64,000 nucleotides of DNA from NCBI RefSeq assembly GCF_030813915.1, contig NZ_JAUSUJ010000014.1, positions 62,001 through 126,000 on the forward strand. Reading direction: 5' to 3'. This document shows positions 12,871 to 29,926 of this stretch, one piece after another; within the stretch, counting starts at the first letter, position 1, and the number at the start of each line of letters is the position of its first letter. This DNA is from Rhodoplanes tepidamans. Lineage in GTDB: Bacteria; Pseudomonadota; Alphaproteobacteria; Rhizobiales; Xanthobacteraceae. The position numbers and the translations under genes were made by a program. The notes under the pieces were generated by a model, which was not told the origin of the DNA, did not search any database, and saw nothing but the letters and a program-made list of their open reading frames with translations.

Positions 12871-12890
12871 GTCGTCCTTCCATTTGCCTG

Positions 12891-12926
12891 ATTGTCAGAC
12901 AATATTGAACCTCGCCGCCGTGTCAA
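12891..12926 (-). promoter_or_regulatory. Promoter and GntR-type operator of the EthD-like gene
   Basis: On the minus strand a -35 TTGACA (12921-12926) is followed after 16 bp by a -10 TATTGT (12899-12904). A perfect 13-bp palindrome, ATTGTCAGACAAT on the plus strand (12891-12903), covers the -10 and start region, ideal for repression. The predicted start near 12892 leaves a 22-nt leader to the ATG at 12870. The same architecture is found at 21830-21865. Confidence 0.75.
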
Positions 12927-14698: not shown

Positions 14699-15529
14699 TC
14701 AGTCGTGGTTGCCCGCCATCTCGGCCTGCCACGGCGCGACGCGGCGCTCGATCGTGCCGACCAGGGCGTTGAGCAGGGTCGCCAGCACCATCAGCACGAC
14801 GATCGGCACGAACATGCGGGCGGTGTCGAAGGCGTTGGCCGCGTTGATGATGATGCCGCCGAGGCCGGAGATGGCGGTGAAGAACTCGGCGATCACCATG
14901 GCGACGACGCCGCGGCCGACCGACAGCTTCAGGCCCGCCATGATGTAGGGCAGCGTCGCCGGCAGCACGATGCGGCGCAGGATGACGAGATCCGGCGCCA
15001 CGAAGGCGCGGCCGACCTCGATCAGCGGCTTCGGCACCACCTTGACGCCGAGCCAGGTGTTGATGGCGATCGGGAACACGCACATCAGGAAGATGACGGC
15101 GACCTTCACCCAGAAGCCGAGGCCGAGCCACAGCACCAGCAGCGGCACCAGCGCGACCAGCGGCATCGCGTAGCCGCCGGTGACGAGCAGCCCGAGCGCC
15201 GCCTCGACGGTGCGGAAGCGGCCCAGCACCAGGCCGAGCGGCACGCCGACGACCACCGACATCGCATAGCCGAGAACGAAGGGCTGGATGCTCTCGGCGA
15301 GCGCGCGGACGAGCTCGCCACTGGCGACGAGCTCCCAGCCGGCGACGGCGATGGCGCTCGGGTACGAGCCGAACACCGGATTGATGTCGCGCCCGAAGAT
15401 CTCCCAGGCGACGAGCAGCGCCACGATCGTTCCGGTGCTGATGATCCAGCGCGGGAGCGGCTTGCGCCTGGCGCGGCGGCTGCGGCCGGAGGCGTCGAGC
15501 GACAGGTTCTGGCTGGCCAGATCGACCAT
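14699..15529 (-). CDS. ABC transporter permease (SsuC/TauC type)
   Basis: A 276-residue inner-membrane permease with six hydrophobic segments and the EAA-type cytoplasmic loop around LIEVGRAFVAPDLVILRRIVLPATLPYI. This is the BPD_transp_1 fold of nitrate/sulfonate/taurine-type importers. The start at 15529 (MVDLASQN) has AGGAG at good spacing. It is the last gene of the minus-strand catabolic operon, 26 bp after the ATPase gene, and pairs with the ATPase and the NMT1-type binding protein. Confidence 0.92.
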   Translation of the reverse strand: MVDLASQNLSLDASGRSRRARRKPLPRWIISTGTIVALLVAWEIFGRDINPVFGSYPSAIAVAGWELVASGELVRALAESIQPFVLGYAMSVVVGVPLGLVLGRFRTVEAALGLLVTGGYAMPLVALVPLLVLWLGLGFWVKVAVIFLMCVFPIAINTWLGVKVVPKPLIEVGRAFVAPDLVILRRIVLPATLPYIMAGLKLSVGRGVVAMVIAEFFTAISGLGGIIINAANAFDTARMFVPIVVLMVLATLLNALVGTIERRVAPWQAEMAGNHD

Positions 15530-15555
15530 GGTGATCTCCTCGCGCGGCAGCGGGC

Positions 15556-16338
15556 TCAATGGACGACGTCCGGCGCCTGATGCAGCGCCTTCCAGATGCG
15601 ATAGCGGATCTCGCCGAAGGCCGGCGACGAGCGCAGCCGGCCGATGTCGCCGCGCGGCCGCGGCAGGGCGACGTCGACGATCTCCTGCAGCTCGCCGTCC
15701 CGCATCACCACGACGCGGTCGGCGAGCAGAACGGCCTCGTCGAGATCGTGGGTGACGAACAGGATGGTCTTGCCGGTGCGGGCCTGGATGTCGAGCAGCT
15801 CGATCTGCAGCGACTCGCGCGTCTGCGCGTCGAGCGCGCCGAACGGCTCGTCCATCAGCAGCACCTTGGGGTCGATCGCCAGGGCGCGGGCGATGCCGAC
15901 GCGCTGGCGCATGCCGCCCGAAAGCTGATAGGGGCGACGATTCCAGGAGTCCTTCAGGCCGACCAGGTCGAGATAGCGCATCGCGGTGTCGTGCAGCTCG
16001 GCCCCGCGCATGCCCTTCATCTCGAGGCCGAACTGGACGTTCTGCAGCGCCGTCAGCCAGGGCAGCAGCTCGGCGTGCTGGAACACCATGCCGCGGTCGT
16101 AGCCGCAGCCGTGCACCTCGCGCCCGTCCACCATCACGTGGCCGTGGCTCGCCTGCTCGAGTCCCATGGCGACGCGCAGCGCCGTGGTCTTTCCGCATCC
16201 GCTCGGCCCGATCAGCACGGCGATCTCGCCGTCCCGGATCGTGAAGCTGACGCGCTTCAGCGCGAACACCGTATGGGCCGCCGCGCCGACACCGGACGTG
16301 AACCGCTTGGTCACGTCCACAAGGCTGACTTCTCCCAT
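15556..16338 (-). CDS. ABC transporter ATP-binding protein (SsuB/TauB type)
   Basis: A 260-residue ATPase with Walker A GPSGCGKTT, signature LSGGMRQRVGIARAL, Walker B VLLMDEPFGALD and switch His in FVTHDLDEA. These are the marks of the nitrate/sulfonate/taurine import family. The ATG at 16338 (MGEVSLVDV) has GAGGAG upstream and was preferred over a longer reading. It lies between the permease and binding-protein genes in the same operon and energises uptake. Confidence 0.93.
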   Translation of the reverse strand: MGEVSLVDVTKRFTSGVGAAAHTVFALKRVSFTIRDGEIAVLIGPSGCGKTTALRVAMGLEQASHGHVMVDGREVHGCGYDRGMVFQHAELLPWLTALQNVQFGLEMKGMRGAELHDTAMRYLDLVGLKDSWNRRPYQLSGGMRQRVGIARALAIDPKVLLMDEPFGALDAQTRESLQIELLDIQARTGKTILFVTHDLDEAVLLADRVVVMRDGELQEIVDVALPRPRGDIGRLRSSPAFGEIRYRIWKALHQAPDVVH

Positions 16339-16427
16339 GCTCGTCTCCTCGGGACGCCCGCGACGGGGGCTCTGCTCGCTCCGAAGCGTGGCGGCCGGCA
16401 CCGGTCAGTCGGTCACACGGCCGGGCG

Positions 16428-17432
16428 TCATTTCCCGACCAGCTCGAGGGCGCGGGCGCGCGGCTTCTCGTCGACCATGGCCTTCACGTCGACGGGCTTG
16501 GTGAGGTTTCCGGTCTTGGTCAGCAGGTCGCGCATCCAGGTGAGCTTCTCGACCGGGATCGGCATCGCCGGGTCGATGGCAGAGAGCTTCACGACCTCGT
16601 CGTGGACGTAGCCGGCGCGCGGGTCGTCAGCCTTGACGCCGGTGACCTCGCTGGTCACCGCGATCATCCTGTCGCGGTTGTCGAGCGCATAGCGCCACGA
16701 CGCCATCGAGGCCGCCAGGAACCGGGCCGCGTCGTCGCCGCGCTCCGCCAGCGTCTTGCCGGACACGTAGGTGCAGAAGCGGATGTACTCGGGAACCACG
16801 TCGTGGGCGTGGACCAGCATCTTGACGCCGAGCTTGTCCGCCACCGGGGCGAAGCCGGTCGCCGCCGCCGCGGCGTCGACGACGCCCGCCGTCACCGCCT
16901 TGAAGCGGTCGCCGTCGCTGCCCAGCACGCTGAACCGCACCTCGTTTCCGGCAATGCCGGCCTTGTCGAGCACGGCGCGGGCGAAAAGGTCGGGCAGCGC
17001 GCCGGGACCGGAGATTGCCAGCGTCTTGCCCTTCAAATCGGCGACGCCGCCGACACTCTTCTTGGCCCAGAGTGCGTAGGTGAGGCCCGGCCAGTAGCAG
17101 CCGACGACCTTGATGTCGGCGCCGCGCGAGGCGGCGATCAGCGGCGCGCCCGGGCTGCCCTCGTAGCTGTCGAGCTCGCCGGCCAGCATGGCCCGCAGGG
17201 CGAGCGCGTCGCCCTTGAACTGCATCATCTGCAGGTCGATGCCCTGCTTCTCGGCGAAGCCGCCCTTGGCCGCCATGAAAACGAAGCCGGCGTCGCTCTT
17301 CGCCTCGACGACGCCGTGACGCCACGGCTTCAGCTCGGCGGCCGACGCCGCGCCGGGCAGCGCCATCGCCGTGAGCAGCACGACGCGGCCGAGGAGCCTG
17401 TTCGCCGGAAACCAGCTCGATCGTGAGCTCAT
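16428..17432 (-). CDS. NMT1/THI5-like periplasmic substrate-binding protein
   Basis: A 334-residue exported binding protein with a signal peptide (hydrophobic LLTAMALPGAASA, cleavage near residue 31). The mature part has the SsuA/THI5 two-lobe pattern (GFVFMAAKGGFAEKQGIDLQ, residues about 49-68; GKTLAISGPGALPDLFARAVL). It delivers its ligand to the permease/ATPase encoded downstream. Because it follows UbiD and amidase genes in one operon, the ligand is probably the heteroaromatic acid or amide degraded by those enzymes (inference). Confidence 0.9.
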   Translation of the reverse strand: MSSRSSWFPANRLLGRVVLLTAMALPGAASAAELKPWRHGVVEAKSDAGFVFMAAKGGFAEKQGIDLQMMQFKGDALALRAMLAGELDSYEGSPGAPLIAASRGADIKVVGCYWPGLTYALWAKKSVGGVADLKGKTLAISGPGALPDLFARAVLDKAGIAGNEVRFSVLGSDGDRFKAVTAGVVDAAAAATGFAPVADKLGVKMLVHAHDVVPEYIRFCTYVSGKTLAERGDDAARFLAASMASWRYALDNRDRMIAVTSEVTGVKADDPRAGYVHDEVVKLSAIDPAMPIPVEKLTWMRDLLTKTGNLTKPVDVKAMVDEKPRARALELVGK

Positions 17433-17457
17433 GACATCTCCTTCAGGTGCACCCGGA

Positions 17458-19149
17458 TCAGGTTGGCCCGGGCTCGGGGGTCTGCGCGAAGGCGACGGGG
17501 GAATTCATGGCGACGTCGCTGCGTCGCTGGTTTGCAAGCTCCGTACCAGTCTTGAAGTAGTCGCTCGCGGCGGCGCGCCGCGCCTGCTGTTCGAGCGCCT
17601 CCGGCCAATGGCCGAGCTCGTAGCCGTGCCACGGCGCCTCCGGCGCGAGCGCCGGCAGGCCGAGCCGCTCCCAGATCGCGCGGGCGTTCTCCATGTACTC
17701 GCGCCGCGGCAGCGCCACCGGTGCGAACACACCTTTCAGCATCGCGTTGATCAGCACGGCCGCCGTGTCGCCGCCGTCGCGCGGCCCTTTCGGGCCGTGA
17801 CCCGGATCCTTGTGGTCGAGGACCCGGAGATCGTGCTGCGGCTGGCAGCGGTAGGACATCGCCCAGAACAGCGCGTCGGCGTTCTCCGGATCGATGTCCT
17901 CGTCGACCGCGACGATCCATTTGCCGGCGAAGCGGTGCAGGGTCGAAGCGCCGTAGAGGGCGCGCCAGACCTCGGTCTCGGGCACGCCGCGCTCGAACTG
18001 GATCCCGAGCACTGCATACAAACTGGTCAGCGGCTCGTGCATCGCGACGCGTTTGACGCCGCGGATCGACAGGCCGTGGCGCAGGTGATGCAGGAACATC
18101 GGCTCCATCGCGGCCTTGCGGATCACGCTGGACTCGCTCGGCGTCACCTGGCTGATGAAGGAGGTGAGGATCGGGTTGCGCCGGCGGGTGATCGCCGTCA
18201 CCTCCATGTAGGCGTTGTATTCCTGCAGATTGACGTAGCCGTGCGATTCGCCGAACGGTGCCTCGGGTTCCAGCGCGTCGGTGGCGATGAAGCCCTCGAT
18301 GACGAACTCGGCCTCGGCCGGCACCAGGAGATCGACCGTCTTGGCGCGCGTCACGTTGATGGAACTTCCGACCAGGGCGCCGGCGACGGCGATCTCGTCG
18401 AGATGCTCGGGCATCTTCTGCACCGAGGCATAGGAGACGGCGGGCGGGCAGCCGACCACCACGGCGCAGGGCATCGGCTCGCCGCGCGCCTTGTATTTCA
18501 GCCAGTGCGCATAGATGCCGGCGCGCAGCTCGACCGAGGGATTCATGCCGAGCCGCCGCGGCGCCTTCAGCTGGCCGCGATAGTTGCCGACGTTCTGGAC
18601 GCCGGTGTCGGGATCCCTGGTGATGTAGTGGCCGGCCGAGAGATAGGGCGCGTTGTCGAAGCCCGGCGTCGAGATCGGCACCGGCAGCCCGTCGAGCGCC
18701 GCGCCGTCGCGGTCGAGTTCCTCGCCCGTGACGACGATGTCGTGACACGGCGCGGACTCGACGACGCGCGGCGGAATCGGCGCCGCGATCGCCGCCACCC
18801 AGGTGTGGCCGATGTCCTCCAGCGGACGGCCGAAGCCGATGCGGTAGACCTCGCGGTTCGCCGCCAGCCCGGCGACCAGCACGGCGCCCGCGTAGCGGCG
18901 GCCGTTCGAGTCGGTCGGCCGGGTGAACAGGAACGCCTTGCGCTCGGGCTCGGGGATGCCGCCGCGGTACTGCCACCGCACCAGCGGATGCATCTCCGTG
19001 TCCTTGTTGATCGGCTCGTCCACGACCACGAGCCGGCCGGCGCGATGCAGCGCCAGCAGGTGGTCGTGCAGGTCTGGATAGCCGCGCGCCGATCCGGCGT
19101 CGTCGAGATAGCGGGCGAGCGCCGGATGCAGCGTGTCGGCCTCACGCAT
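17458..19149 (-). CDS. UbiD-family (prenyl-FMN) decarboxylase
   Basis: A 563-residue cytosolic protein of the UbiD superfamily, reversible decarboxylases of aromatic, heteroaromatic or acrylic acids that need prenylated FMN made by a UbiX (not in the window). Family blocks visible are GSSINVTRAKTVDLLVPAEA, the following EFVIEGF and VDEDIDPENADALFWAM, with HDLRVLDHKDPGHGPKG near the C-terminus. The ATG at 19149 overlaps the amidase stop by 8 bp, so the two are coupled. In context it likely removes a carboxylate from an N-heteroaromatic compound or intermediate. The exact substrate cannot be deduced. Confidence 0.88.
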   Translation of the reverse strand: MREADTLHPALARYLDDAGSARGYPDLHDHLLALHRAGRLVVVDEPINKDTEMHPLVRWQYRGGIPEPERKAFLFTRPTDSNGRRYAGAVLVAGLAANREVYRIGFGRPLEDIGHTWVAAIAAPIPPRVVESAPCHDIVVTGEELDRDGAALDGLPVPISTPGFDNAPYLSAGHYITRDPDTGVQNVGNYRGQLKAPRRLGMNPSVELRAGIYAHWLKYKARGEPMPCAVVVGCPPAVSYASVQKMPEHLDEIAVAGALVGSSINVTRAKTVDLLVPAEAEFVIEGFIATDALEPEAPFGESHGYVNLQEYNAYMEVTAITRRRNPILTSFISQVTPSESSVIRKAAMEPMFLHHLRHGLSIRGVKRVAMHEPLTSLYAVLGIQFERGVPETEVWRALYGASTLHRFAGKWIVAVDEDIDPENADALFWAMSYRCQPQHDLRVLDHKDPGHGPKGPRDGGDTAAVLINAMLKGVFAPVALPRREYMENARAIWERLGLPALAPEAPWHGYELGHWPEALEQQARRAAASDYFKTGTELANQRRSDVAMNSPVAFAQTPEPGPT

Positions 19150-20503
19150 CGGGCACCCCGAGCGCCTCGGCGAGCCACGCCGAGACGGCGAAGGCGTCGG
19201 CATCGCCGTTCGCGAAGCCCAGCACCTGGAGACCGAGCGGCAGCCCCGCCTCCTCGAACAGCGGCACCGAGAGCGCCGGCACGCCGAGCATCGAGCCCGG
19301 CACCACGCAGATCGGGTTGCCGGTCGGCCGCAGCCCGACCGGCGCGGCGCTCGGCGCCGGCAGCGCGATGCAGGCGTCGCAGTCGGATGCGAGCGCCGCG
19401 TAGAGGGCCCGCACGCGGGCCCGCTCGGCGAGCGCCTTGCGATAGCCGTCGAGCCCGATGGTCGCCGCCTCGTCGAGGCGGTCGCGGCACGCCTGGCTCA
19501 GCTTGTCGGCATCGCGCGAGCGATAATCCTTGTAGGGCCAGATCGACTCGAAGGCGTTGATGCGGTTGGACAGCGGCCACGCGTCGTGGACCGCCTGCTC
19601 CACCGCCTCGACGCGCGGATCGGTACGGCGCGTGACGACCGCCACCCCCTGCTGCGCCAGCCGCTCGGCGGCGTCGTGCAGCACCGCCTTGGCGGCCTCG
19701 GTCGCCACCGCCCAGCCGGCCGTCTCCAGCACGGCGATGCGGGTCGGCCTCCTCGGCGCCGGCATGGTGGCGGGGCCGAACAGGCCCTCGAAGCCGGGAT
19801 CGCCGCCGACCCGCACGGCCATCTCCATCATGGCCTGCCAGGCGTCGGCCAACGAGGCGGCCAGGATGCCGGTGGCGCTCTGGCTCAGATAGTCGTGGCT
19901 GCCGCCGCGATTGATCGCGCCGACCGTCGGCTTGAAGCCGACGCAGCCGCAATAGCTCGCCGGCCGCACGATCGAGCCGATCACCTGGGTGCCGAGCGCG
20001 GCACTGACGATGCCGACGGCGACAGCCGCGGCGGAGCCGCTGCTCGAGCCGCCGGGCGTGTGGCTCGGGTCCCACGGATTGCGGGTGCCGCGCGGCTCGG
20101 TGGCGGCGAACTCGGTGGTCACGGTCTTGCCGACGATCACGGCGCCGGCGTCGCGCAGCCCCATGGTCGAGGCGGCGTCGCGGCCCGCCTGCCAGCCGTC
20201 GAAGACCGGCGAACCCATCTGGGTCGGCAGGTCGAAGGTCTCGATGATGTCCTTGACGCCGACCGGCATGCCGTCGATGCGCGACAGCGGCCGGCCGGCC
20301 TTCCAGCGCGCCGTCGCCGCGTCGGCGGCGGCCCGCGCCGCCGACGGATCCGTGCACACGAACGCCCCGATCACCGGCTCCCACGCGTCCAGCCGCTCGA
20401 GGCAGCGCTCCAGGAACGCCCGCGGCGTGTCGCGGCCCTCCGCGAAGTTCTCCGTCGAAGCGCAGAACGGCGCCGGGGTTGGCCGGCCGGGGGTGCTCGT
20501 CAT
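19142..20503 (-). CDS. Amidase, amidase-signature (AS) family
   Basis: A 453-residue hydrolase with the Ser-cisSer-Lys triad: Lys84 in MPVGVKDI, the Gly/Ser-rich motif TPGGSSSGSAAAVA (about 149-162) and nucleophile Ser177 in QVIGSIVRPASYCG. It hydrolyses a C-N amide bond and would release ammonia from an opened ring or a side-chain amide. The ATG at 20503 lies 5 bp after the FAD hydroxylase stop and the end overlaps ubiD, so the three enzymes form one translational unit. Confidence 0.9.
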   Translation of the reverse strand: MTSTPGRPTPAPFCASTENFAEGRDTPRAFLERCLERLDAWEPVIGAFVCTDPSAARAAADAATARWKAGRPLSRIDGMPVGVKDIIETFDLPTQMGSPVFDGWQAGRDAASTMGLRDAGAVIVGKTVTTEFAATEPRGTRNPWDPSHTPGGSSSGSAAAVAVGIVSAALGTQVIGSIVRPASYCGCVGFKPTVGAINRGGSHDYLSQSATGILAASLADAWQAMMEMAVRVGGDPGFEGLFGPATMPAPRRPTRIAVLETAGWAVATEAAKAVLHDAAERLAQQGVAVVTRRTDPRVEAVEQAVHDAWPLSNRINAFESIWPYKDYRSRDADKLSQACRDRLDEAATIGLDGYRKALAERARVRALYAALASDCDACIALPAPSAAPVGLRPTGNPICVVPGSMLGVPALSVPLFEEAGLPLGLQVLGFANGDADAFAVSAWLAEALGVPDA

Positions 20504-20508
20504 CGGGA

Positions 20509-21747
20509 TCACGCGGGCTCGAGGGTCATGGCGGCGGCGCGAGCCTGGCTCGCGATCATCGACGTGCGCATCAGAAACTGGCGCGCCCGGTCCGGATCGC
20601 CGGCGATCGCGCGCAGCTCGTCGAGGTTCTTCCGCCGCGTCTCCGCGTCGCGCGCCTCGAGCCGCTTCTTGTTGGCGATGGTCTGCTCCTGAACGAACTC
20701 GATCGCCACGGTGCGGCGCTGGAGGTCGTAGAGATCGAGCAGCGCCTCGGGCGCGCCGTCGTTCGTCACCGCGAGCAACTTCTCGGCGAGGTTGGCGCCG
20801 TCCTGCAGGCCGCCGTTGAGTCCCATGCCGCCGATCGGGTTGTTGACGTGCGCCGCGTCGCCGGCGAGCAGCACCCGCCCCTTGCGGAACGTCGTCGCGA
20901 CGCGCTGGTGGGTGACGTAGAGATTGCGGTGGACGATCTCGTAGGGGCGATCGGCCGGAAAGAACTTCTGCATGCGCGCCTGCACGGCGGCATCGCTCAT
21001 CAGCTCCGCTTCGGCGACATTCGGGTCCGTCGGGAACACGCAGCGCCACAGGCCGGGCGGTCCGTCGTGCGAGACCTTGAAGCAGTTGCACCACTCGTCC
21101 GGATCGGCCCAGTAGCTGCGGAAGCACAGGCCGCGCTGCGCCTCGAAGTCGAACGGCGTGGTCAGCACGATGAAGCGCTCGGGCCAGGTGAAGCCCTCGA
21201 ACGGAATCTCGGCCTGCTTGCGCACCACGCTGCGGCCGCCGTCGGCGCCGATCAGCCACGCCCCCGAATGCCGCGCCACCGTGCCGTCGGGACCACGAAC
21301 CTCGACGGTCGCCTCGCTCGCCGACTGGGTCGCGGTCAGCACCTCGTGGCGATAGAGCACCTCGACGTTCGGCAGCCGCGCGATGCGATCGAGGATCAGC
21401 TTCGCGGTCTTGAACTGCTCGCACTGGACCACGAAGGGATGCCGCGTCGCATCGGCGAGGATCGCGTGGTCGAACTCGCAGACCTTCTCGTTGCCGGGCC
21501 GGTCCCAGAACTGGAACGTGCGGGCGACGAGGCCGACCCGCGCCATGTCGGCGGAGAGGCCGTCGTCGGCGAGCAGATCGAGGGTCGCCGGATGGGTCGT
21601 GGCGGCACGCGGGTCGGCCTGCGGGCCGTCGTTGAGATCGAACAGCCGCACCGGAATGCCCTGCCGTCCGATCAGCCATGCACAGAGGAGACCGACGGGA
21701 CCGCCGCCGGCGATCAGCACGGTCCTGCTCGTGTCGCCGCTGCTCAT
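20509..21747 (-). CDS. FAD-dependent aromatic hydroxylase (PHBH fold)
   Basis: A 412-residue flavoprotein monooxygenase. It has the N-terminal Rossmann motif IAGGGPVGLLCAWLIGRQG (GxGxxG type), a DG-type segment GAWLIGADGGRSVVRKQ and the C-terminal FAD motif GRVLLAGDAAHVNNPIGGMG. Family members use NAD(P)H and O2 to hydroxylate phenols or hydroxylated pyridines, for example 6-hydroxynicotinate 3-monooxygenase and PHBH. It is the first gene of the six-gene operon driven by the promoter at 21830-21865. Substrate is unproven; the amidase/enamidase setting suggests a hydroxylated N-heteroaromatic ring. Confidence 0.88.
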   Translation of the reverse strand: MSSGDTSRTVLIAGGGPVGLLCAWLIGRQGIPVRLFDLNDGPQADPRAATTHPATLDLLADDGLSADMARVGLVARTFQFWDRPGNEKVCEFDHAILADATRHPFVVQCEQFKTAKLILDRIARLPNVEVLYRHEVLTATQSASEATVEVRGPDGTVARHSGAWLIGADGGRSVVRKQAEIPFEGFTWPERFIVLTTPFDFEAQRGLCFRSYWADPDEWCNCFKVSHDGPPGLWRCVFPTDPNVAEAELMSDAAVQARMQKFFPADRPYEIVHRNLYVTHQRVATTFRKGRVLLAGDAAHVNNPIGGMGLNGGLQDGANLAEKLLAVTNDGAPEALLDLYDLQRRTVAIEFVQEQTIANKKRLEARDAETRRKNLDELRAIAGDPDRARQFLMRTSMIASQARAAAMTLEPA

Positions 21748-21829
21748 GCGGTCCGTCCCGCGTCGCGATGGTTCGTCCCGGAGACCTGGAGCGCGCGTGT
21801 CTTCACGATCATGACCCTTCGCTTGACAG

Positions 21830-21865
21830 ATTGTCTGACGATATGAAACTCTGCGGTCCTGTCAA
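21830..21865 (-). promoter_or_regulatory. Promoter and GntR-type operator of the catabolic operon
   Basis: On the minus strand -35 TTGACA (21860-21865) is followed after 16 bp by -10 TATCGT (21838-21843). The operator ATTGTCTGACGAT (21830-21842, one mismatch from a perfect palindrome) overlaps the -10. This is the layout seen at 12891-12926. The site lies between the divergent hydroxylase (start 21747) and AA_synth (start 21888) genes and could control both. On the plus strand a TTGACA at 21823-21828 abuts the operator. Confidence 0.75.
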
Positions 21866-21887
21866 CAAGAGATAAGAGCCACGCCTC

Positions 21888-22478
21888 ATGGATCTTCCCA
21901 TCCGCCGCCTGACCACCGTGGTCGACGACAAGTTCGTCGAGGCCGGACGCCCGGCCGATCGCCTGCTCCGCAAGGTCGCCGTGGTCGCGGTGGTGCCGAA
22001 CCCCCATGTCGGCCGTTACGTGCAGGATCTGTCGCCGATGATCGAGGCGAGCCGCGAGATCGGTGCCCGCATGGCCGAGGCCGCGCTGGCGGCGATGGGC
22101 GCGCACACGGCGGAGAGCTACGGCAAGGGCGGAATCGTCGGACTCGGCGGCGAGCAGGAGCACGCCAACGCGCTGCTGACGACCACCTTCGCCAACCCGT
22201 TCCGCGATGCCATCGGCGACGCGCCGGCCTGGATCTCGTCGATGACCAAGGTTGCGGCGCCGGGCACGCCGATCGACATCCCGATGAACGCCAAGACCGA
22301 CGTCTACGTGCGGTCGCACTACGACGGCATGACGCTAGTGCTGCCCGACGCACCGCTGCCCGACGAGATCGCGCTCGTGTTCTGCCTCGCCAATCGCGGC
22401 CGCCTCAACGCCCGCGTCGGCGGCATGAGCTACGCGGAGTCCGTCGCGGCCCTGCAGAAGGCGCTGCAGCCGGCGTGA
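21888..22478 (+). CDS. AA_synth (DUF1185) family protein
   Basis: A 196-residue soluble protein of the amino-acid-synthesis family (PF06684/DUF1185), characterised structurally in Bordetella but without an established reaction. Family-like segments are RKVAVVAVVPNPHVGRY, SYGKGGIVGLGGEQEHA and PIDIPMNAKTDVYVRSHYDGMT. It is transcribed divergently from the hydroxylase-amidase-UbiD operon from a region holding the GntR operator. It is therefore most likely an enzyme of the same catabolic route (inference). Its name in databases is historical and should not be read as a function. Confidence 0.8.
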   Translation: MDLPIRRLTTVVDDKFVEAGRPADRLLRKVAVVAVVPNPHVGRYVQDLSPMIEASREIGARMAEAALAAMGAHTAESYGKGGIVGLGGEQEHANALLTTTFANPFRDAIGDAPAWISSMTKVAAPGTPIDIPMNAKTDVYVRSHYDGMTLVLPDAPLPDEIALVFCLANRGRLNARVGGMSYAESVAALQKALQPA

Positions 22479-22537
22479 GCAGGACCGGACAGTCGTTCCG
22501 GCGCCGGAACGGCGGAGACGGCTTCGTCTGATGACCT

Positions 22538-22648
22538 CGGGTCATTCCGGGACGGCGCGCAGCGCCGGACCCGGACTGCAGCCACGAACACGAAACTCGT
22601 CGCTGGAGTCCGGGTTCGCGGGCATCGCCGGCGCCCCGGAATGACCCG
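22538..22648. repeat. REP-like palindromic element
   Basis: The 14-bp arms CGGGTCATTCCGGG (22538-22551) and CCCGGAATGACCCG (22635-22648) are perfect inverted repeats enclosing about 83 bp. Inside is a second inverted pair, ACCCGGACT and AGTCCGGGT. The nested structure and the GTCATTCCGGG end resemble the dispersed palindromic elements of alphaproteobacterial genomes. It lies between the convergent AA_synth and enamidase genes and may also act as a bidirectional terminator. Confidence 0.7.
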
Positions 22649-22653
22649 CGCTT

Positions 22654-23850
22654 TCAGTGCCCGGCGCCGCTGAAGTCCTGCGGGATGCGGCACTCGGCGA
22701 CGCGGACCGGTCTGATGGTCTGCGGCGTGTTGCGGCTGCGGCCGACGAAGCGCGGGACGCCGTCCGTGACGAGGGCGCCGACCGCGGCGATGTCGCCGTT
22801 GGCGAGCCCGGCGAGCGCGTCGTTCTTCGAGCCGCCGGCGCAGGCGTCGATCAGCACCACGTCGGCATCGCGGCCCGGCGCGATCACGCCGGAATTCAGG
22901 CGATAGACGCGGGCATTGTTGCCGGTCGCGGCGGCGATCGCGCGCTCGACCGGAATGCCGCCGAGGCTCGCCAGATGCGTGATGGTGTAGAGCATGCCGA
23001 GCGGCATGATGCCGCTGCCGGTCGGCGTGTCGGTGGCGATGAGCACGCGGTCGAAGGCGCCGGCCGCGGTGGCGAGCTTGGCCACGAGCAGCGCGGTGCG
23101 CAGATTGCCGGCCGTGCAGATCTGCAGCGCAACGTCCGACTCGTTCACGAGGCGCGGAAAGTCCCCGTCCGGCATGGCGATCGGGCCGCCGTTCACGTGG
23201 AACGATACGTCCGGCCTCATGGCGAGCAGGTGGTCTGCCCAGATGCCCGACGAGCCCGGGATCGACGACCCGCCGGTGTGCACCAGCGTGACCATGCCGA
23301 GGGCGCGCGCCTCGGCGATCAGCGGCGCGTAGTCGTAGGGCGTCGGGAAGGCCCCGAAGCCGGCCTTCGCCATCCACACGCCCTGCGCGGCGATCTCGGC
23401 GAGGTCGGCGCCGGTGAGCCCCGGCTCCAGGATCACGGCGCCGGCATGCACCCGCATCCCGCCCGGCCGGTAGTCCTGGAACGACTTCAGCGCGGCGACC
23501 GCGAGCGCCTTGACGCCGGCCGGATCCTTGGGCCGGCCCGGCACGTGCACCTCCGACGCCGTGATCGCCGTGGTGACGCCGCCGTGCACGTAGCTCTCCA
23601 GATAGCCGACCGTCTTCTGGCGCGGCGTGTAGTCGCCGAACGTGATGTGCACGTGCGAATCGATCAGGCCCGGCATCGCCGTGGTGCCGCCCGCGTCGAT
23701 CACCACGTCGGCGCCCTCCATCGCATCCGCGTCGGCACCGCCGACATGGACGATCGCGCCGCCCTCCATCACGATCGTGTCGCCGGCCACGAACGGCTCG
23801 CGCCAGTCGCCGCTGACGATCAGGCCGAGATTGGTGATCGCCGTCTTCAT
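22654..23850 (-). CDS. Enamidase-like metal-dependent amidohydrolase
   Basis: A 398-residue amidohydrolase. Metal-ligand motifs are SHVHI (His66, His68), HTGGSSIPGSS, HVNGGP and ATDTPTGSG. From memory these, together with GDYTPRQKT, VPGRPKDPAGVKALA, VHAGAVILEPGLT and SRNTPQTIR, match the enamidase of Eubacterium barkeri nicotinate fermentation. That enzyme opens the ring of 6-oxo-1,4,5,6-tetrahydronicotinate and releases ammonia. The gene has its own GntR-type operator about 90 bp upstream and faces the gntR gene. I infer hydrolysis of a cyclic enamide in an N-heteroaromatic pathway. Dihydropyrimidinase-like activity is the alternative. Confidence 0.83.
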   Translation of the reverse strand: MKTAITNLGLIVSGDWREPFVAGDTIVMEGGAIVHVGGADADAMEGADVVIDAGGTTAMPGLIDSHVHITFGDYTPRQKTVGYLESYVHGGVTTAITASEVHVPGRPKDPAGVKALAVAALKSFQDYRPGGMRVHAGAVILEPGLTGADLAEIAAQGVWMAKAGFGAFPTPYDYAPLIAEARALGMVTLVHTGGSSIPGSSGIWADHLLAMRPDVSFHVNGGPIAMPDGDFPRLVNESDVALQICTAGNLRTALLVAKLATAAGAFDRVLIATDTPTGSGIMPLGMLYTITHLASLGGIPVERAIAAATGNNARVYRLNSGVIAPGRDADVVLIDACAGGSKNDALAGLANGDIAAVGALVTDGVPRFVGRSRNTPQTIRPVRVAECRIPQDFSGAGH

Positions 23851-23939
23851 GCGTCGGTCCCCTCGTCGCTGGTCGCCGGCGCGTCGCCCCGCCCGACCGG
23901 GCCGGGCCGGCGTTCCGGATCTGGTACGTAGATGCTCAT

Positions 23940-23952
23940 ATTGTAAGACAAT
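23940..23952. promoter_or_regulatory. GntR-type operator between enamidase and gntR
   Basis: ATTGTAAGACAAT is a palindrome with arms ATTGT and ACAAT, close to the operators at 12891 and 21830. Minus-strand sequence through it, TTGACAGATTGTCTTACAAT, shares its first 14 bases with plus-strand sequence at 21823. It lies 90 bp before the enamidase start and 310 bp before gntR. The rest of 23851-24261 shows no gene. Confidence 0.7.
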
Positions 23953-24261
23953 CTGTCAAGTGATAGCGTCACCGGACCGGCGCGAGCCCGCCGGTTCCGC
24001 GGCGAACGCTCCCCTCGGATCGGGCGCACACCACGGGCAGGTTCCGCCGACGGGTGATGCCCGGGGGCCGGAAACGTCGTATCGTCCCGGACGATTCGAG
24101 CGCGCAGCGGGAGCGGCACGTTCGCGTCCCTGCCGTTCCGGCTCGACCGACGCGGGCGACGTCGTGACGCGGTGCCATACCGCGTCGAGGAGCAGACGGT
24201 TCGACGGCGAACCGCCCTGGACATCGGATCGTCGGATACAGATCGTCGGAAGCGGATCGTC

Positions 24262-24948
24262 ATGAGTCAGATGGCCCCGAGGCCCCGCCTGGATCTCCGC
24301 ATCTCTCCCAAGACGGTGCAGCAGCAGGCCGTCGAGAAGCTCCGCGGCGCGATCCTGGCCGGCCACTTCAAGCCGGGCGACCGGCTGGTCGAGGGCGATC
24401 TCTGCGCCATGCTCGGCGTCAGCCGCCCTTCGGTGCGCGAGGCGCTGCGCAGCCTGGAGGCCGAACGGCTGATCGCCGTCGCGCCGAACCGCGGCTTCTT
24501 CGTCCCGACGATGTCGTGGGAGGAGATCGAGGAGATCTACCGGGTGCGGGCGCTGCTCGAAGGAGAGGCCGCCGCCCTGTTCACGGTGCGGGCGAAGCGG
24601 CCGGAGCTGCAGGCAATGCGGGCCGCCCTGGACGACTTCAGGGCGGCCGTGGCCGCCGACGACATGATGGAGCAGCTCGCCTCGACGGGCCGGTTCTACG
24701 AGCCGATCCTGGCCGGCTGCGGCAACCGCATCATCCAGGAAATCCTGCAGGGTCTGATGGCCCGCATCACGTTCCTTCGGTCACGCTCGATGTCGCGCAA
24801 GGGCCGCGCCCGGCTGAGCCTGCGCGAGATGACGCGGATCTTCGACGCCGTGCGGGGCAGCGATCCGGAGGCGGCCCGCACCGCGGCCCGCGAGCATGTC
24901 GAGCAGGCCTGCGCCGCAGCCGAGATCGTCTACGCCGAGAAGGAGTGA
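24262..24948 (+). CDS. GntR-family regulator, FadR/FCD subfamily
   Basis: A 228-residue DNA-binding protein. The N-terminal winged helix (residues about 18-85) has LRGAILAGHFKPGDRLVEGDL and GVSRPSVREALRSLEAERL. The helical C-terminal FCD domain (about 95-220) begins RVRALLEGEAAALF. The ATG at 24262 (MSQMAPRP) was preferred over a start 90 bp upstream. FCD-type repressors bind short palindromes with TNGTNNNACNA-like cores. The ATTGTCNGACAAT sites at 12891, 21830 and 23940 fit, so this is the likely regulator of the surrounding catabolic genes, released by a pathway acid. Confidence 0.9.
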   Translation: MSQMAPRPRLDLRISPKTVQQQAVEKLRGAILAGHFKPGDRLVEGDLCAMLGVSRPSVREALRSLEAERLIAVAPNRGFFVPTMSWEEIEEIYRVRALLEGEAAALFTVRAKRPELQAMRAALDDFRAAVAADDMMEQLASTGRFYEPILAGCGNRIIQEILQGLMARITFLRSRSMSRKGRARLSLREMTRIFDAVRGSDPEAARTAAREHVEQACAAAEIVYAEKE

Positions 24949-25651: not shown

Positions 25652-25898
25652 GCAGATGAACCGACACTCTTCGGCTTACAAACCCTGGCGGCAGAGGATC
25701 ATCCTTCGCTTTGTTTCGGGCAGGCATGTCGAGCGTCAGTGAAATGGCTATAGCTGAGCCGATTTCAGCGCTTTCGACCCTGTGTCCAGGCTGAAGGACC
25801 GCTGAAGCAACTCTCTATCAGCGCGCGCTGGCCGCGCGAAAGCGACCGATGGGGCGTGAGGCGCCGTCGGCGTGTGCGAGGCTTATGGGGCTAGGGCG

Positions 25899-26951
25899 AT
25901 GCCGTCCGATGACGATACCCACGATTTTCGGAGCTTCGATCGGCTTCCTTGGGAGCTGAACAAACGCATTGCGTTGGAGGTCGCGCGGGGCCTCAGAGAC
26001 GGGGGCCAGCTCGGCGAATACGACCGGCTCGCGGATCGCATCACCCGATGCGGGCGGGTTTTGGAGTTCGATCGCTACGACACGGCCGAGGGCACGATCC
26101 CTCGCCTCGTTGGGGGAGAGTTTTGCCGGTCCCGGATGTGCCCGACGTGCATGCGGCTCAGAAGCCGCAAGTTGCACTATCAGCTGAGCGAGGTGCTGGA
26201 CCTCTATACGCGCCGAAACCCGACCGACCAAGCTTTGTTGATCACCCTGACCATCAGGAACTGCGTTGCGGAGGAGTTGGCAGACACCCTCAGCCGATTG
26301 ATGGAGGCTCTCCGGCGCTTCGTCCGTGCAAAGCGCTTCAAGCGCGCGTTCGCCGATGACTCCGGGGCGCGCTCCTGGTTCCGCACCTTGGAGATCACGC
26401 GGAACGCTGAGACCGGGGCATATCACCCTCACCTGCACCTCCTGGTGATGGCGCCGAACGGCTATTTCCAGAGGGACACCGGCCGTTACCTCACACAAGA
26501 TGAACTCGCCGAGCTGTGGGGAACCTCCCTGCATGCCGACTACCGGCCTGTGGTCGATATCCGGCCAATTAAGGGAGTTGGTGGAGGCCGACTCACCGAT
26601 ATCGGGCGGAAGTCGCTGCGGGAGGTCACGAAGTACGTCACCAAATTCTCCGACCTGGTGAGCAGTGACAGCCTGGCGCTGGCGATCACGCCGGAAGAGC
26701 TTTGCGAGGTTCATGAGGCGCTGAGGGGCCGTAGGCTGATCGGCAAGAGCGGGACCTTCCGCGCGCTCTCGGCCGAACTCGATCAAGTCGACGTCGACGA
26801 ACCGGACGCGGACTGGGGCATGCCAGACCGCTTGCCGCCGGAGGCCATTTATCTCGGCCGCGAACGCTGGGAATGGCGCTGGGCCTCACAGACTTTCGAG
26901 ATTTTCGATCTGGTTTTCGTGCCGCCAGAACGGCGGCGCGAAACCGGGTAG
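25899..26951 (+). CDS. Rolling-circle replication initiator, Rep_1 (pC194) family
   Basis: A 350-residue HUH-type initiator that nicks the leading-strand origin. Visible motifs are a zinc-ribbon-like FCRSRMCPTCMRLRSRK (residues 76-91), motif I LITLTIRN (114-121), HUH motif HPHLHLLVMAP (176-186) and KYVTKFSD (245-252), where the catalytic Tyr and Lys of this family lie. The ATG at 25899 is used; a start 27 bp upstream is possible. The small gene and the FtsK-like pump gene follow on the same strand. In actinomycete AICEs, Rep of this kind amplifies the excised element before FtsK-type transfer. Confidence 0.83.
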   Translation: MPSDDDTHDFRSFDRLPWELNKRIALEVARGLRDGGQLGEYDRLADRITRCGRVLEFDRYDTAEGTIPRLVGGEFCRSRMCPTCMRLRSRKLHYQLSEVLDLYTRRNPTDQALLITLTIRNCVAEELADTLSRLMEALRRFVRAKRFKRAFADDSGARSWFRTLEITRNAETGAYHPHLHLLVMAPNGYFQRDTGRYLTQDELAELWGTSLHADYRPVVDIRPIKGVGGGRLTDIGRKSLREVTKYVTKFSDLVSSDSLALAITPEELCEVHEALRGRRLIGKSGTFRALSAELDQVDVDEPDADWGMPDRLPPEAIYLGRERWEWRWASQTFEIFDLVFVPPERRRETG

Positions 26952-27031
26952 CACGCAGCCTCTGCCCGGCCGGGCAGCAGCCCGGAGTTTTTTGAGCTGC
27001 ACTTTGAGACTGCCAGGAATGGAGAAGCGCG

Positions 27032-27355
27032 ATGGCGAACACGGGCTTGCTGGTGACCGGCAAGGTCGTCGGTCAAAAACACAACATGTACGATAACAAG
27101 CCGTATTGCGTGCTGCAGGTGATGGGTGAGGCGACGGACGGGTCTGTGAGCTTCATGGAAGTGAGCATGCCCGATGGCGCCAACCTCGCGGAATATGAGA
27201 AGGGAAAGGACGTGAGCATCCCGGTCATGGCGGCCGTCAACAAGTACAACAAGGTGGTGTTGCGGGCGGTTCTGCCGAAGACGGCGGCGGGCCAGTCGGC
27301 TTCGGCGATCAACAACGCCCGGCGCACTCCTGAAGCGCCGCGCACGACGCCGTGA
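27032..27355 (+). CDS. Small conserved protein of unknown function between rep and pump
   Basis: A 107-residue soluble protein starting MANTGLLVTGKVVGQK with GGAGAAGCG upstream. Its body alternates short beta-type segments (YCVLQVMGEA, VSFMEVSMPD, VSIPVMAAV, KVVLRAVLP), suggesting a compact OB-like or beta-barrel fold. Small single-strand DNA-binding proteins are common beside rolling-circle rep genes, so such a role is plausible but unproven. It sits 80 bp after rep and 61 bp before the pump gene. Confidence 0.65.
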   Translation: MANTGLLVTGKVVGQKHNMYDNKPYCVLQVMGEATDGSVSFMEVSMPDGANLAEYEKGKDVSIPVMAAVNKYNKVVLRAVLPKTAAGQSASAINNARRTPEAPRTTP

Positions 27356-27416
27356 GTGTGCTGGACCGGCGTGGCGTGGCTCCGCCACGCCGGTCTTGCC
27401 TCGGAAGGTCCGACGC

Positions 27417-29312
27417 ATGCAAGTCCATTGCCTCAGCTTGGCGGATTCGCTGCTCGATTTCTGGAAGCGCGACGACCGCAACGCCGTGGAGGCGCACTTC
27501 AACGCCAAGCTTCGCGAGTTGGAGATGGACCACCTGCATCGCAACCTGGCGAAAAGTTACAGCTGGTGCCTCCGCGCTTACGTTGCCCTGTGGGATTGCG
27601 GACCAAGGATTTCGCTGCTCAATCTTCTTCACTGTGACTTCCGGTCAAAAGTGATCACGTATCGGCTCTACGAACGGGTCCTCACGGTCGCTGATTTGGA
27701 GGTCCGGCGCGAAGCCCTCGAACACCTCTGGGGCGAAGCCGTCGAGTTCGTTGATGGCGCTGGCACATTCGAACACTACTGGGACGGGCGCACTCTCCGG
27801 GAATTCACGGCGCCAGGCGCAGTAGTGGTGCGCCCTAAAGGCTGGAAGCTGATCCGCCCCGTGATCGAGGCGCCCAAAATCGCAACGTCCTCGCCACCCA
27901 AGGCGTGCATCAACCTGCCGTACCGACCACCGCCACCCGGTCTGCGCGTGGTCGAGCCCGCACCGAGCGCCGTAGCGGTCAGGGCGAATGTTTTGGAACG
28001 CCTCCGGTCGCACGCCGCGCCGAAGCCCAAGCCGGTTGAGCCGATCGAGTCCAAGAAGCTGCGCGAGTTTTTGGACTGGTGGGCGCGCGGTGAAGACCCG
28101 AATTACGTGGTTCCGGAGTTCGCTTTCTTCATGGTGGGGTCCGAACATCTCCTCACGCATTACTGGACGCTCTCCGACCAGGACAAGGCGAGAGGAAGGC
28201 GGTTTATCTGGCGAGCGATTGCCGAATTTGCCGGGCGGCTGAATTCGACCACCTATCCGGCAATGGCGGCGGCCGTGGCAGCCTGGCGCTGCGGGCTCAC
28301 AGGATCGCTAGAGACCAGTTGGATCGAGCTGAACGCCTGTGACTTCCGCAACAGCGTGGTCACCTACGTCGGGATCGGGCAGGTCCTGCGGCCTGCCGAA
28401 TTCGAGCCGCATCGGGACTACTTCGAGACGCTGTGGCAAGGGCCGGTCGAATTCGTCGACGCGGGCCAGGGGGTAGTGCTTCCCGCACAGTGGGACAAGG
28501 TCTCGAAACATCCCGGTTGCGTGACTGTGCGGCGGCGCCGCGTCCTGCCCGAACGCATCCAGCTTGGTCCGGTGCGGAATGCGGAGGTCACATTCGGCGT
28601 GGAGCTAACCACCGGCGAAAGGGTGAGCCTGCCTCTCCGAAGAGTCCCGCACACGCTGGTCGCCGGGACGACAGGCTTCGGCAAGTCCGTGTTCCTGCAT
28701 CAGTTGATTCAACAGCTGCTGCAGCAAACGGACGTGGAGCGCCTGTACCTCGTCGATCTCAAGGCAGGCATTGAGTTCGCGCGCTATGAGGCACAGCCCA
28801 GGGCGACCGTCGTCTGGGAAATGCCGGAGGTGTTCCGGGTCATCGATGAGCTTGCCGCCGAGATGGACCGAAGACTGCAAGCCGCTCGGGGAGCGGGCCG
28901 GGAGTTCAACGGGCCACGCATCTTCTTCGTGGTCGACGAGTACGCCGAGATCGAGCTGTGGCCGACCGTGGGGAAGGAAGAGAAGGAAGCGAAGGCGAGG
29001 GCCCTGGCTCAGCTGATCAGGATTTCGCTGAGGGGACGGGCGGCCGGAATCGTGCTCGTGCTCAGCCTGCAGAAGGCCACGACTGACGTAATGGATAGTT
29101 CGCTGCGGAATAACCTGGCCGGACTGGTGTGCTTCCGGGTCGGTTCGAAAATGACGGCGGCTGCGATGTTCGGCAGTACCGATGATCTGCGGGTGAACCC
29201 GCTGCAGCTGCGGCGCGGGCAATTCATCTTCTACAATCCGGTCGCGGCGGAGATTCATTATCTGCAGGCAACCGTGCCGGACGGGCTCGGGATCGCGGAC
29301 GGGAGGGGCTAG
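27417..29312 (+). CDS. FtsK/SpoIIIE-like DNA translocase with duplicated N-terminal domain
   Basis: A 631-residue protein. The C-terminal half is an FtsK-type motor with Walker A AGTTGFGKSVFLH (416-428), Walker B RIFFVVDEYAEI (501-512) and sensor segment VLSLQKATTDVMD. The N-terminal half carries two copies of an unrecognised domain, near residues 45-120 and 280-355, sharing CDFR-x-x-V-x-TY, LW and VEFVD. No transmembrane segment is evident. The ATG at 27417 has GGAAGG 8 nt upstream. In AICEs a single FtsK-like protein (TraB/TraSA) moves double-stranded DNA between cells; TcpA and Cls-type proteins do related jobs elsewhere. A role in element transfer is inferred from its place after rep. Confidence 0.82.
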   Translation: MQVHCLSLADSLLDFWKRDDRNAVEAHFNAKLRELEMDHLHRNLAKSYSWCLRAYVALWDCGPRISLLNLLHCDFRSKVITYRLYERVLTVADLEVRREALEHLWGEAVEFVDGAGTFEHYWDGRTLREFTAPGAVVVRPKGWKLIRPVIEAPKIATSSPPKACINLPYRPPPPGLRVVEPAPSAVAVRANVLERLRSHAAPKPKPVEPIESKKLREFLDWWARGEDPNYVVPEFAFFMVGSEHLLTHYWTLSDQDKARGRRFIWRAIAEFAGRLNSTTYPAMAAAVAAWRCGLTGSLETSWIELNACDFRNSVVTYVGIGQVLRPAEFEPHRDYFETLWQGPVEFVDAGQGVVLPAQWDKVSKHPGCVTVRRRRVLPERIQLGPVRNAEVTFGVELTTGERVSLPLRRVPHTLVAGTTGFGKSVFLHQLIQQLLQQTDVERLYLVDLKAGIEFARYEAQPRATVVWEMPEVFRVIDELAAEMDRRLQAARGAGREFNGPRIFFVVDEYAEIELWPTVGKEEKEAKARALAQLIRISLRGRAAGIVLVLSLQKATTDVMDSSLRNNLAGLVCFRVGSKMTAAAMFGSTDDLRVNPLQLRRGQFIFYNPVAAEIHYLQATVPDGLGIADGRG

Positions 29313-29926
29313 ACGGACCGTGAGGGGTGAACCGAGGGCCGAACCCGCGAGGACAGACGCGCCGCCTGAGGCGCGGCTGCCCGCAGCGGGGAGGCCAGAG
29401 CGCGAGAACCGAACGGCTGGCCAAAGTCGGATCAGGCTTCGAACTGAGCCCCGCGAAGAGTGGCTGAATGAGATGAAGATTGGCGCTCGACGGTTGCGGG
29501 AAGAGGAAGGCGTCCGCTGTAGCGGCGGCGGTGACTCACCCGCACACATGGTAGGCGCGAGATGCCAGCGTCAATCTGATCGGGCGGGCCGTGGGCACGG
29601 CGGCGGGGCGAAGATATTTCCCTTGATACATTCGAAACAGCAGGTCACGCAGCTAGGCCTGGGGCAGCGAACCGTTGCGTTAGTGGCGCCGATGGTCGAC
29701 CCTGAACCGCAGAACGGGTTAGGACGATGCTCCTGTCCTGCAGAACGCTCCGATGAGCGGTTTCAGAACCGCCGTCGGTTTCTTAGTCGAGTGCAATTGG
29801 TGCGGTGTGGCCCCTCTTCGCGGGAAGGGAAATGGTCGCACCCAGGTGGACTTCTTGTTGCTATTCGCGCTTGGCAGGCCAGATTGCGTCCCTGATCGAC
29901 CTTAAATCCGAATTTGATCGGTGCCC
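29313..29926. other. Gap of 614 bp without a supported gene
   Basis: The end of the pump gene and the tail-to-tail methyltransferase gene border this stretch. A 191-codon open frame from 29320 has an Arg/Glu-rich N-terminal part but poor codon character, no ribosome site and no recognised domain. I see no repeat, hairpin with T-run or RNA gene. Confidence 0.4.

Follow-up and report, generated by a model that had tools for sequence, protein, structure and literature searches.

A co-regulated gene set with a Lys-type enamidase homologue in Rhodoplanes tepidamans, a probable variant of N-heteroaromatic catabolism

Gene content and operator sites

We analyzed a stretch of 64,000 nucleotides of the Rhodoplanes tepidamans genome (C14:62001-126000 of the 6.86-Mb genome; hereafter the window) for a gene set that spans 12.2-24.9 kb of it and combines an enamidase-like amidohydrolase with a UbiD-family decarboxylase, a flavin adenine dinucleotide (FAD) monooxygenase (FMO), an amidase, an AA_synth/DUF1185 protein, an ATP-binding cassette (ABC) importer, an EthD-like protein and a GntR-FCD regulator. 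The gene set is real and co-regulated and probably represents a variant of N-heteroaromatic catabolism; its hydrolase belongs to a distinct, Lys-type branch of the enamidase family, and we infer the substrate and the order of steps. A first-pass annotation had placed UbiD, an FAD hydroxylase, an amidase, an enamidase-like hydrolase, AA_synth and an importer at 14699-23850, and all of them were found there, each with a strong family match (Table 1). The extent of the regulon had been underestimated: besides the genes listed, it includes the GntR-FCD gene and the EthD-like gene, both outside that interval, the latter 8 kb away and missed in the annotation.

Six genes (FMO, amidase, UbiD, binding protein, ABC ATPase and permease) form a packed run on the minus strand, with overlaps of 4 bases between FMO and amidase and 8 bases between amidase and UbiD. 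The latter overlap results from a UbiD start at 19149, which is most likely the correct one, not 19203. The permease start (ATG at 15529) was taken from the translation, the open reading frame listing having a longer frame. The ATPase has a GTG start at 16401 and an ATG further inside, and its taurine/nitrate-type matches were below the cut-offs. A hydrophobic segment resembling a signal peptide is present at the N-terminus of the binding protein. AA_synth had been taken for a member of the operon; its gene is in fact on the plus strand, divergent from the FMO gene. The enamidase homologue forms a separate minus-strand unit, followed by the GntR-FCD gene.

Table 1. Features of the gene set and of the adjoining region (window coordinates)
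Feature	Position	Strand	Family or structure match	Remark
EthD/DUF4286-like protein, 222 aa	12202..12870	-	Pfam PF14114 7.8e-07
Operator copy 1	12886..12905			Perfect core ATTGTCAGACAAT; 15 bases upstream of EthD-like start
ABC importer permease	14699..15529	-	PF00528 2e-25
ABC importer ATPase	15556..16401	-	PF00005 7e-32
SsuA/NMT1-like substrate-binding protein	16428..17432	-	PF09084 9e-17
UbiD-family (prFMN-type, prenylated flavin mononucleotide) decarboxylase, 563 aa	17458..19149	-	PF01977 3e-52
Amidase-signature hydrolase	19142..20512	-	PF01425 8e-67
FMO, single component	20509..21747	-	PF01494 (FAD_binding_3) 8e-57
Operator copy 2	21825..21844			FMO/AA_synth divergent promoter region
AA_synth/DUF1185 protein	21888..22478	+	PF06684 5e-65
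Lys-type enamidase-like amidohydrolase	22654..23850	-	Amidohydro_1 3e-16; 2vun 1.6e-104
Operator copy 3	23938..23957			87 bases upstream of enamidase-like start
GntR-family regulator with FCD domain	24262..24948	+	PF07729 8e-26; PF00392 3.5e-19
Rep_1 replication protein	25872-26951	+
FtsK/SpoIIIE	27396-29312	+
D12 adenine methyltransferase	29927-30862	-

The palindrome GATTGTCNGACAATATG (at most 2 mismatches) occurs at three sites in the whole genome, all in the window: upstream of the enamidase gene, between FMO and AA_synth, and upstream of the EthD-like gene. The reversed control pattern gave 0 sites genome-wide. A longer near-identical 24-base element, TTGACAGATTGTCTNACNATATGA (at most 3 mismatches), was found at only two genome sites, in the FMO/AA_synth gap and before the enamidase gene, and a related pattern had 3 matches within the window versus 0.01 expected. 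Operator copy 2 overlaps a promoter-like TTGACA-16-TATCGT match for FMO, which is the arrangement expected of a repressor site; the GntR-FCD protein is presumed to be the repressor acting at the three sites. Since the operator is private to three promoter regions here, the co-regulation proposed in the first-pass annotation is well supported.

Operator-like palindromes were also found at related loci. When no more than 2 of the 12 defined bases were allowed to mismatch, AA_synth starts had such a site within 200 bases at 9 of 17 loci (window included); 1000 first-order shuffles gave 0.13 such loci on average and never more than 3. Beijerinckia sp. L45 carries operator-like sites at its enamidase cluster (L183) and also close to where a separate importer-FMO operon begins (L112), the latter locus giving 5 matches versus 0.41 expected. 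On Mesorhizobium plasmid pWSM4875 (L150), six operator-like palindromes are spread over 22 kb around the AA_synth-enamidase genes. Genes for a Liv-type importer, a molybdenum hydroxylase and two proteins resembling type II dehydroquinase lie in the same stretch, which suggests a larger regulon.

Two branches of the enamidase family

The Eubacterium enamidase 2vun is the only strong solved homologue of the window hydrolase, and the homology extends over the full length (residues 2-383; E value in Table 1). Four His and one Asp of the metal site align with those of 2vun (the fourth metal His was checked in the window sequence alone), and Lys162 replaces Glu164, so that the metal-site residues of 2vun are not all conserved. 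In 2vun Glu164 bridges the metals; a carboxylated Lys is a common substitute for the bridging residue in the amidohydrolase superfamily. In the phylogenetic tree, 18 rows that are 59-79% identical to the window hydrolase make up clade A (support 100/98). Another 23 rows (41-47% identical) form a second branch, also with support of 100/98; the loci examined from it are mostly nicotinate clusters. Two deeper sequences, from Thermomicrobium and Rhodococcus (48-49% identical), join clade A with support of 94/95. Lys occupies the Glu164 position in 20/20 rows (clade A plus the two deeper sequences) and Glu occupies it in 2vun and in 23/23 rows of the other branch. Lys is found as well in one distant row (L182). 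The loci of the deeper Lys-type enamidases (L153, Thermomicrobium roseum plasmid; L154, Rhodococcus pUSK13) contain Rieske dioxygenase genes, and L153 also has AA_synth and a molybdenum hydroxylase.

We compared the genes within 9.5 kb of the enamidase gene at 17 clade-A loci (window excluded) and 12 loci of the other branch. AA_synth is frequent in both (16/17 and 10/12, respectively), and several nicotinate clusters hold two copies of it. EthD-like (12/17), GntR (11/17), FMO (10/17) and succinate semialdehyde dehydrogenase (SSADH, 6/17) genes were found near clade-A enamidases and at none of the 12 other loci. Conversely, 6-hydroxynicotinate reductase and UPF0280 were each present at 9 of the 12 other-branch loci and at no clade-A locus. 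The molybdenum-hydroxylase large subunit was found at 1/17 and 4/12 loci. Among the seven clade-A loci without a nearby FMO, an HpaB-type oxygenase is encoded in L157, L183 and L187 (together with a flavin reductase in L183 and L187), a xanthine-dehydrogenase-type enzyme is encoded in L150, and the FMO of L185 is 18 kb from the enamidase; L149 has no oxygenase among its listed genes, and L186 was searched only with the query set of this study. L183 also carries a UbiX-like flavoprotein and UbiD. The enamidase family is thus split by one residue and by gene context, the Glu-type being found mostly with reductive nicotinate genes and the Lys-type with oxygenases.

The window hydrolase had been matched to the ring-opening enzyme of nicotinate fermentation. 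Its homology to 2vun stands, but it falls outside the nicotinate-cluster branch and has Lys for Glu. No match to the 6-hydroxynicotinate reductase, UPF0280 or molybdenum-hydroxylase/nicotinate-dehydrogenase queries was obtained in the window at 1e-6, and no ring-cleaving dioxygenase was seen among the ten window proteins profile-scanned (no dioxygenase query was run). Within this coverage, neither the dehydrogenase and reductase nor the ring-cleaving dioxygenase of a reductive or aerobic nicotinate cluster was found, nor the 6-hydroxynicotinate reductase that marks the enamidase context, in agreement with the earlier view that the gene set does not resemble known nicotinate clusters. The likeness to the reductive nicotinate pathway of Eubacterium barkeri and the Azorhizobium/Bradyrhizobiaceae clusters, as far as the available part of the source describes them (PMC3511419), is limited to an enamidase-family hydrolase with AA_synth nearby; the window differs by its monooxygenase, its own GntR regulator, the operator and the EthD-like protein, as well as by the Lys residue and the missing reductase, UPF0280 and dehydrogenase homologues. 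The same genome contains a separate nicotinate set, consisting of a 6-hydroxynicotinate reductase at C36:51524 (68%) with UPF0280 and two AA_synth genes adjoining, and a Glu-type enamidase is located at C11:139. Because of this separate reductase-type set, nicotinate is unlikely and was rejected as the substrate.

Monooxygenase, UbiD and accessory proteins

The FMO shows near-full-length similarity to the PnpA/HspB-type FAD monooxygenases (PnpA, 6ain, 2.5e-66, query residues 6-373; HspB, 7da9, 1.1e-55, residues 8-392). The UbiD homologue belongs to its family, with N, central and C domains (PF20695, PF01977, PF20696) above the cut-offs. Its best PDB matches were 6h6x/6h6v (~1e-39), presumably HmfF, of the furan type. 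A match was also obtained to PA0254 (4ip2, 7e-27), a pyrrole-2-carboxylate decarboxylase according to the accessible text of PMC7976604. The genome has two PF02441 flavoproteins (C6 and C21), one of them possibly UbiX, both matched at family level only. UbiD-family matches in the genome amount to eight, the window's own included.

The EthD-like protein was modeled as a two-domain ferredoxin-like fold (predicted local distance difference test score, pLDDT, 93.1). Its best VIA match is the marine metagenome protein 2pgc (Z 20.2, root-mean-square deviation 2.9, 197 aligned), followed among others by the anthrone oxidase-like 5f9p (Z 17.3), the PenE monooxygenase 9kdp (Z 16.7) and bacterial chalcone isomerase (Z 12.5). 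Muconolactone isomerase was absent from the best 50 fold matches in both comparisons, lists that do not exclude it. Judging from the model, an isomerase role and that of a cofactor-free oxygenase are equally conceivable for the EthD-like protein.

The solved homologues of AA_synth are 2qtp (1.2e-37) and 3byq (7e-25). Solved structures of this family (PF06684) have been available since 2010, without an assigned function according to the part of the report accessible (PMC2954203). DUF1185-type proteins are encoded in two other catabolic clusters: HcdD of the hcd cluster for 7-hydroxycoumarin is of this type, and TgnF of the tgn cluster for trigonelline is its homologue. Stimulation of a neighbouring enzyme has been ascribed to TgnF, an effect that could not be shown for HcdD; unlike the window, these clusters have no enamidase or UbiD in the available portion of the source (PMC7913881). 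Riboflavin catabolism was also considered as a related system and looked unrelated in the accessible part of PMC12746152. No description of this gene set was recognized in a literature search to which subscription papers were largely beyond reach, and a search pairing enamidase with UbiD found nothing.

Proposed pathway and its alternatives

We favor the interpretation that the gene set is a substrate-induced regulon by which a small N-heteroaromatic carboxylic acid is degraded aerobically, with a pyrrole-type ring as the best fit, and estimate its probability at roughly 0.55. The importer would bring in the acid, from which UbiD and/or the amidase may take off a carboxyl or an amide group. 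Oxygenation of a ring carbon adjoining the nitrogen would be the task of the FMO; in relatives, a molybdenum hydroxylase or a two-component oxygenase of the HpaB type would fill this role. The oxygenated product would already be a lactam that is no longer aromatic. The EthD-like protein may convert this lactam to its enamide tautomer, and the Lys-type enamidase homologue would open it hydrolytically to ammonia and an oxo-acid; our guess is that AA_synth assists the ring opening. Besides ammonia, the expected product would be 2-oxoglutarate or, if a decarboxylation takes place (through UbiD or in the oxygenation step), succinate semialdehyde.

A pyrrole-type ring is favored because a single oxygenation next to the nitrogen turns a pyrrole into a pyrrolinone, a cyclic enamide, with no need for the reductase of the pyridine route, and because several relatives come with an SSADH-type gene. 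In its enamide form, the pyrrolinone has the type of bond that is cleaved by enamidase. The window has an oxygenase and no reductase, so that oxygenation alone would make the cyclic enamide. A pyridine oxygenated once is still aromatic, as a pyridone. We consider it quite unlikely that the genes encode a pyridine-carboxylate route, in which the FMO would make a (di)hydroxypyridine and the enamidase homologue would open a pyridone-derived lactam. Enamidase is known from nicotinate, HspB, the second-best FMO structure, is a pyridine monooxygenase, and in the kpi cluster for 4-hydroxypyridine of Arthrobacter IN13 an FMO step is followed by opening of the N-ring of 3,4-dihydroxypyridine by the enamidase-related amidohydrolase KpiC (PMC7356986). 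KpiC, however, shares only 28% identity with enamidase and functions as a dioxygenase, and no UbiD, AA_synth or EthD is seen in that cluster in the available text (PMC7356986). The nicotinate route needs hydroxylation followed by a reductase to reach a non-aromatic lactam, as described in the accessible part of PMC3511419. Further arguments against a pyridine substrate are that a hydroxypyridine would stay aromatic, that neither a ring reductase in the window nor a ring-cleaving dioxygenase among the ten scanned proteins was found, and that the genome has its separate nicotinate set while the hydrolase is placed outside the nicotinate-associated branch. An FAD monooxygenase and an amidohydrolase are also the logic of imidazole-acetate catabolism, and this parallel, together with the amidase in the window, would fit an imidazole-type acid route in which the FMO gives an imidazolone, the amidohydrolase opens it and a formyl or formimino group is cleaved off by the amidase. 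Such a route is very improbable: among solved structures the hydrolase has a strong homologue in enamidase alone, an amidase homologue is rare near clade-A enamidases (counts below), and the SSADH association would have no role.

Several observations weigh against the favored interpretation. In the enamidase branch, Gln replaces the first metal-binding His in the clade-A sequences of Pigmentiphaga (L184) and G690 (L177), this being the sole change at the other four tabulated metal positions. Near the enamidase genes, an amidase is present at only 2 of 17 clade-A loci (0/12 in the other branch) and UbiD at only 1 of 17 (1/12), and 11 of the 17, like the window, lack SSADH (SSADH-like genes do occur elsewhere in the genome, the best being 45% identical). 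The clade-A sample is biased toward FMO, since 5 of its 17 loci came from the FMO search and 6 more from FMO-chosen genomes; the six loci found by enamidase alone (L149-L152, L157 and L158) have FMO in 3, EthD in 3 and AA_synth in 6. Eight of the 17 AA_synth loci are below the operator threshold, with weaker look-alikes in L087, L096, L149 and L152 and nothing convincing in L157, L158, L187 and L188. This threshold is loose and also gives 30 scattered matches in 25 of the 80 FMO loci (1.28 Mb), so the argument rests on the position of the sites and not on the motif alone. For the window UbiD, PA0254 ranks behind 6h6x/6h6v, 6da6, UbiD and 7pda.

The genes can also be assigned to two modules. 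A scan for the FMO across species genomes gave 80 loci (some neighbouring reading frames at related loci are approximate, being called by a simple composition score). At 24 of these, a homologous amidase and/or UbiD comes after the FMO, in many cases together with the same importer (module M1). The second module, M2 (e.g., L087, L093, L094, L096, L111, L151, L152 and L184), consists of GntR, EthD-like, AA_synth and enamidase genes, often with FMO, with an ABC or tripartite ATP-independent periplasmic (TRAP) importer and in some cases with SSADH. For 48 of the 80 FMO loci, all 24 M1 loci included, we searched the genome for enamidase homologues at 1e-50 and found them in 13. Close enamidases were present in three M1 genomes (L064, L076 and L097) and an other-branch enamidase only in one (L080). 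The remaining 20 of 24 M1 genomes had no enamidase homologue, absences that are soft because most of these genomes are draft or metagenome-derived. The window FMO is within the clade of M1 FMOs (43 rows; Shimodaira-Hasegawa-like approximate likelihood ratio test, SH-aLRT, 99), and the window thus joins an M1 operon with M2 control genes. The FMOs beside the enamidase in Devosia and its kin form a neighbouring clade (6 rows, 99), those of L111, L151, L184 and L188 fall elsewhere in the tree, and a second FMO of the M1 locus L090 is placed outside the M1 clade. The FMO-amidase-UbiD-ABC and enamidase modules are separable, which weakens the idea of a single inherited pathway.

Two pathways under one regulator, the FMO-amidase-UbiD-importer genes serving one aromatic acid or amide and the AA_synth-enamidase-EthD genes another, may have been joined here by rearrangement. 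This explanation, which we regard as doubtful, draws on the placement of the window FMO apart from those beside enamidase, on the M1 genomes without enamidase and on the scarcity of UbiD near clade-A enamidases. It is countered by the operator common to the FMO/AA_synth gap and the enamidase gene, by the FMO found near 10 of the 17 clade-A enamidases (in the biased sample), and by G686, in which an FMO of the window type and a clade-A enamidase are 18 kb apart on one contig. We concluded that the proposal of an N-heteroaromatic acid pathway is retained insofar as an enamidase homologue, an FAD hydroxylase, UbiD, an amidase, AA_synth and a binding-protein importer are under one operator, and is weakened with respect to a single inherited pathway and a nicotinate-like substrate.

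As a tentative and rather unlikely extension of the pyrrole-type interpretation, the Lys-type enamidase, AA_synth and the EthD-like protein might form the hitherto unassigned ring-opening set of aerobic pyrrole-type acid catabolism, a nitrogen counterpart of muconolactone isomerase and enol-lactone hydrolase that works with interchangeable oxygenases (FMO, HpaB-type or molybdenum hydroxylase) and yields succinate semialdehyde or 2-oxoglutarate plus ammonia. A two-component pyrrole-2-carboxylate monooxygenase of Rhodococcus was reportedly described by Becker and co-workers in 1997 (cited in PMC6165268). Compared by description only, it resembles the window in the proposed flavin-dependent oxygenation of a five-membered N-heteroaromatic acid, and the HpaB-type oxygenase and flavin reductase of some cluster relatives recall it, whereas the window FMO is a single-component PF01494 protein. 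For the aerobic breakdown of five-membered N-heteroaromatic acids, the gene set offers a concrete candidate ring-opening step, and with one small regulon the functions of the unnamed enamidase branch, AA_synth and the two-domain EthD-like protein become directly testable.

Other genes were noted at or near these loci. At M1 loci (e.g., L048, L080 and L114), genes for a second amidase, an NMT1/THI5-like protein and a ChrR-cupin-like protein are common, and DUF2848 is present at many. As possible cluster parts, the NMT1-like c1, DUF2848 and cupin queries had no match in the window, and the second amidase query matched only the window amidase already listed. A second FMO homologue of the genome (51%) is located at C26:37550, beside an arylmalonate-decarboxylase/racemase-like cluster c14 gene. 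Integrated-element-like genes adjoin the regulon at 25872-30862 of the window (Table 1).

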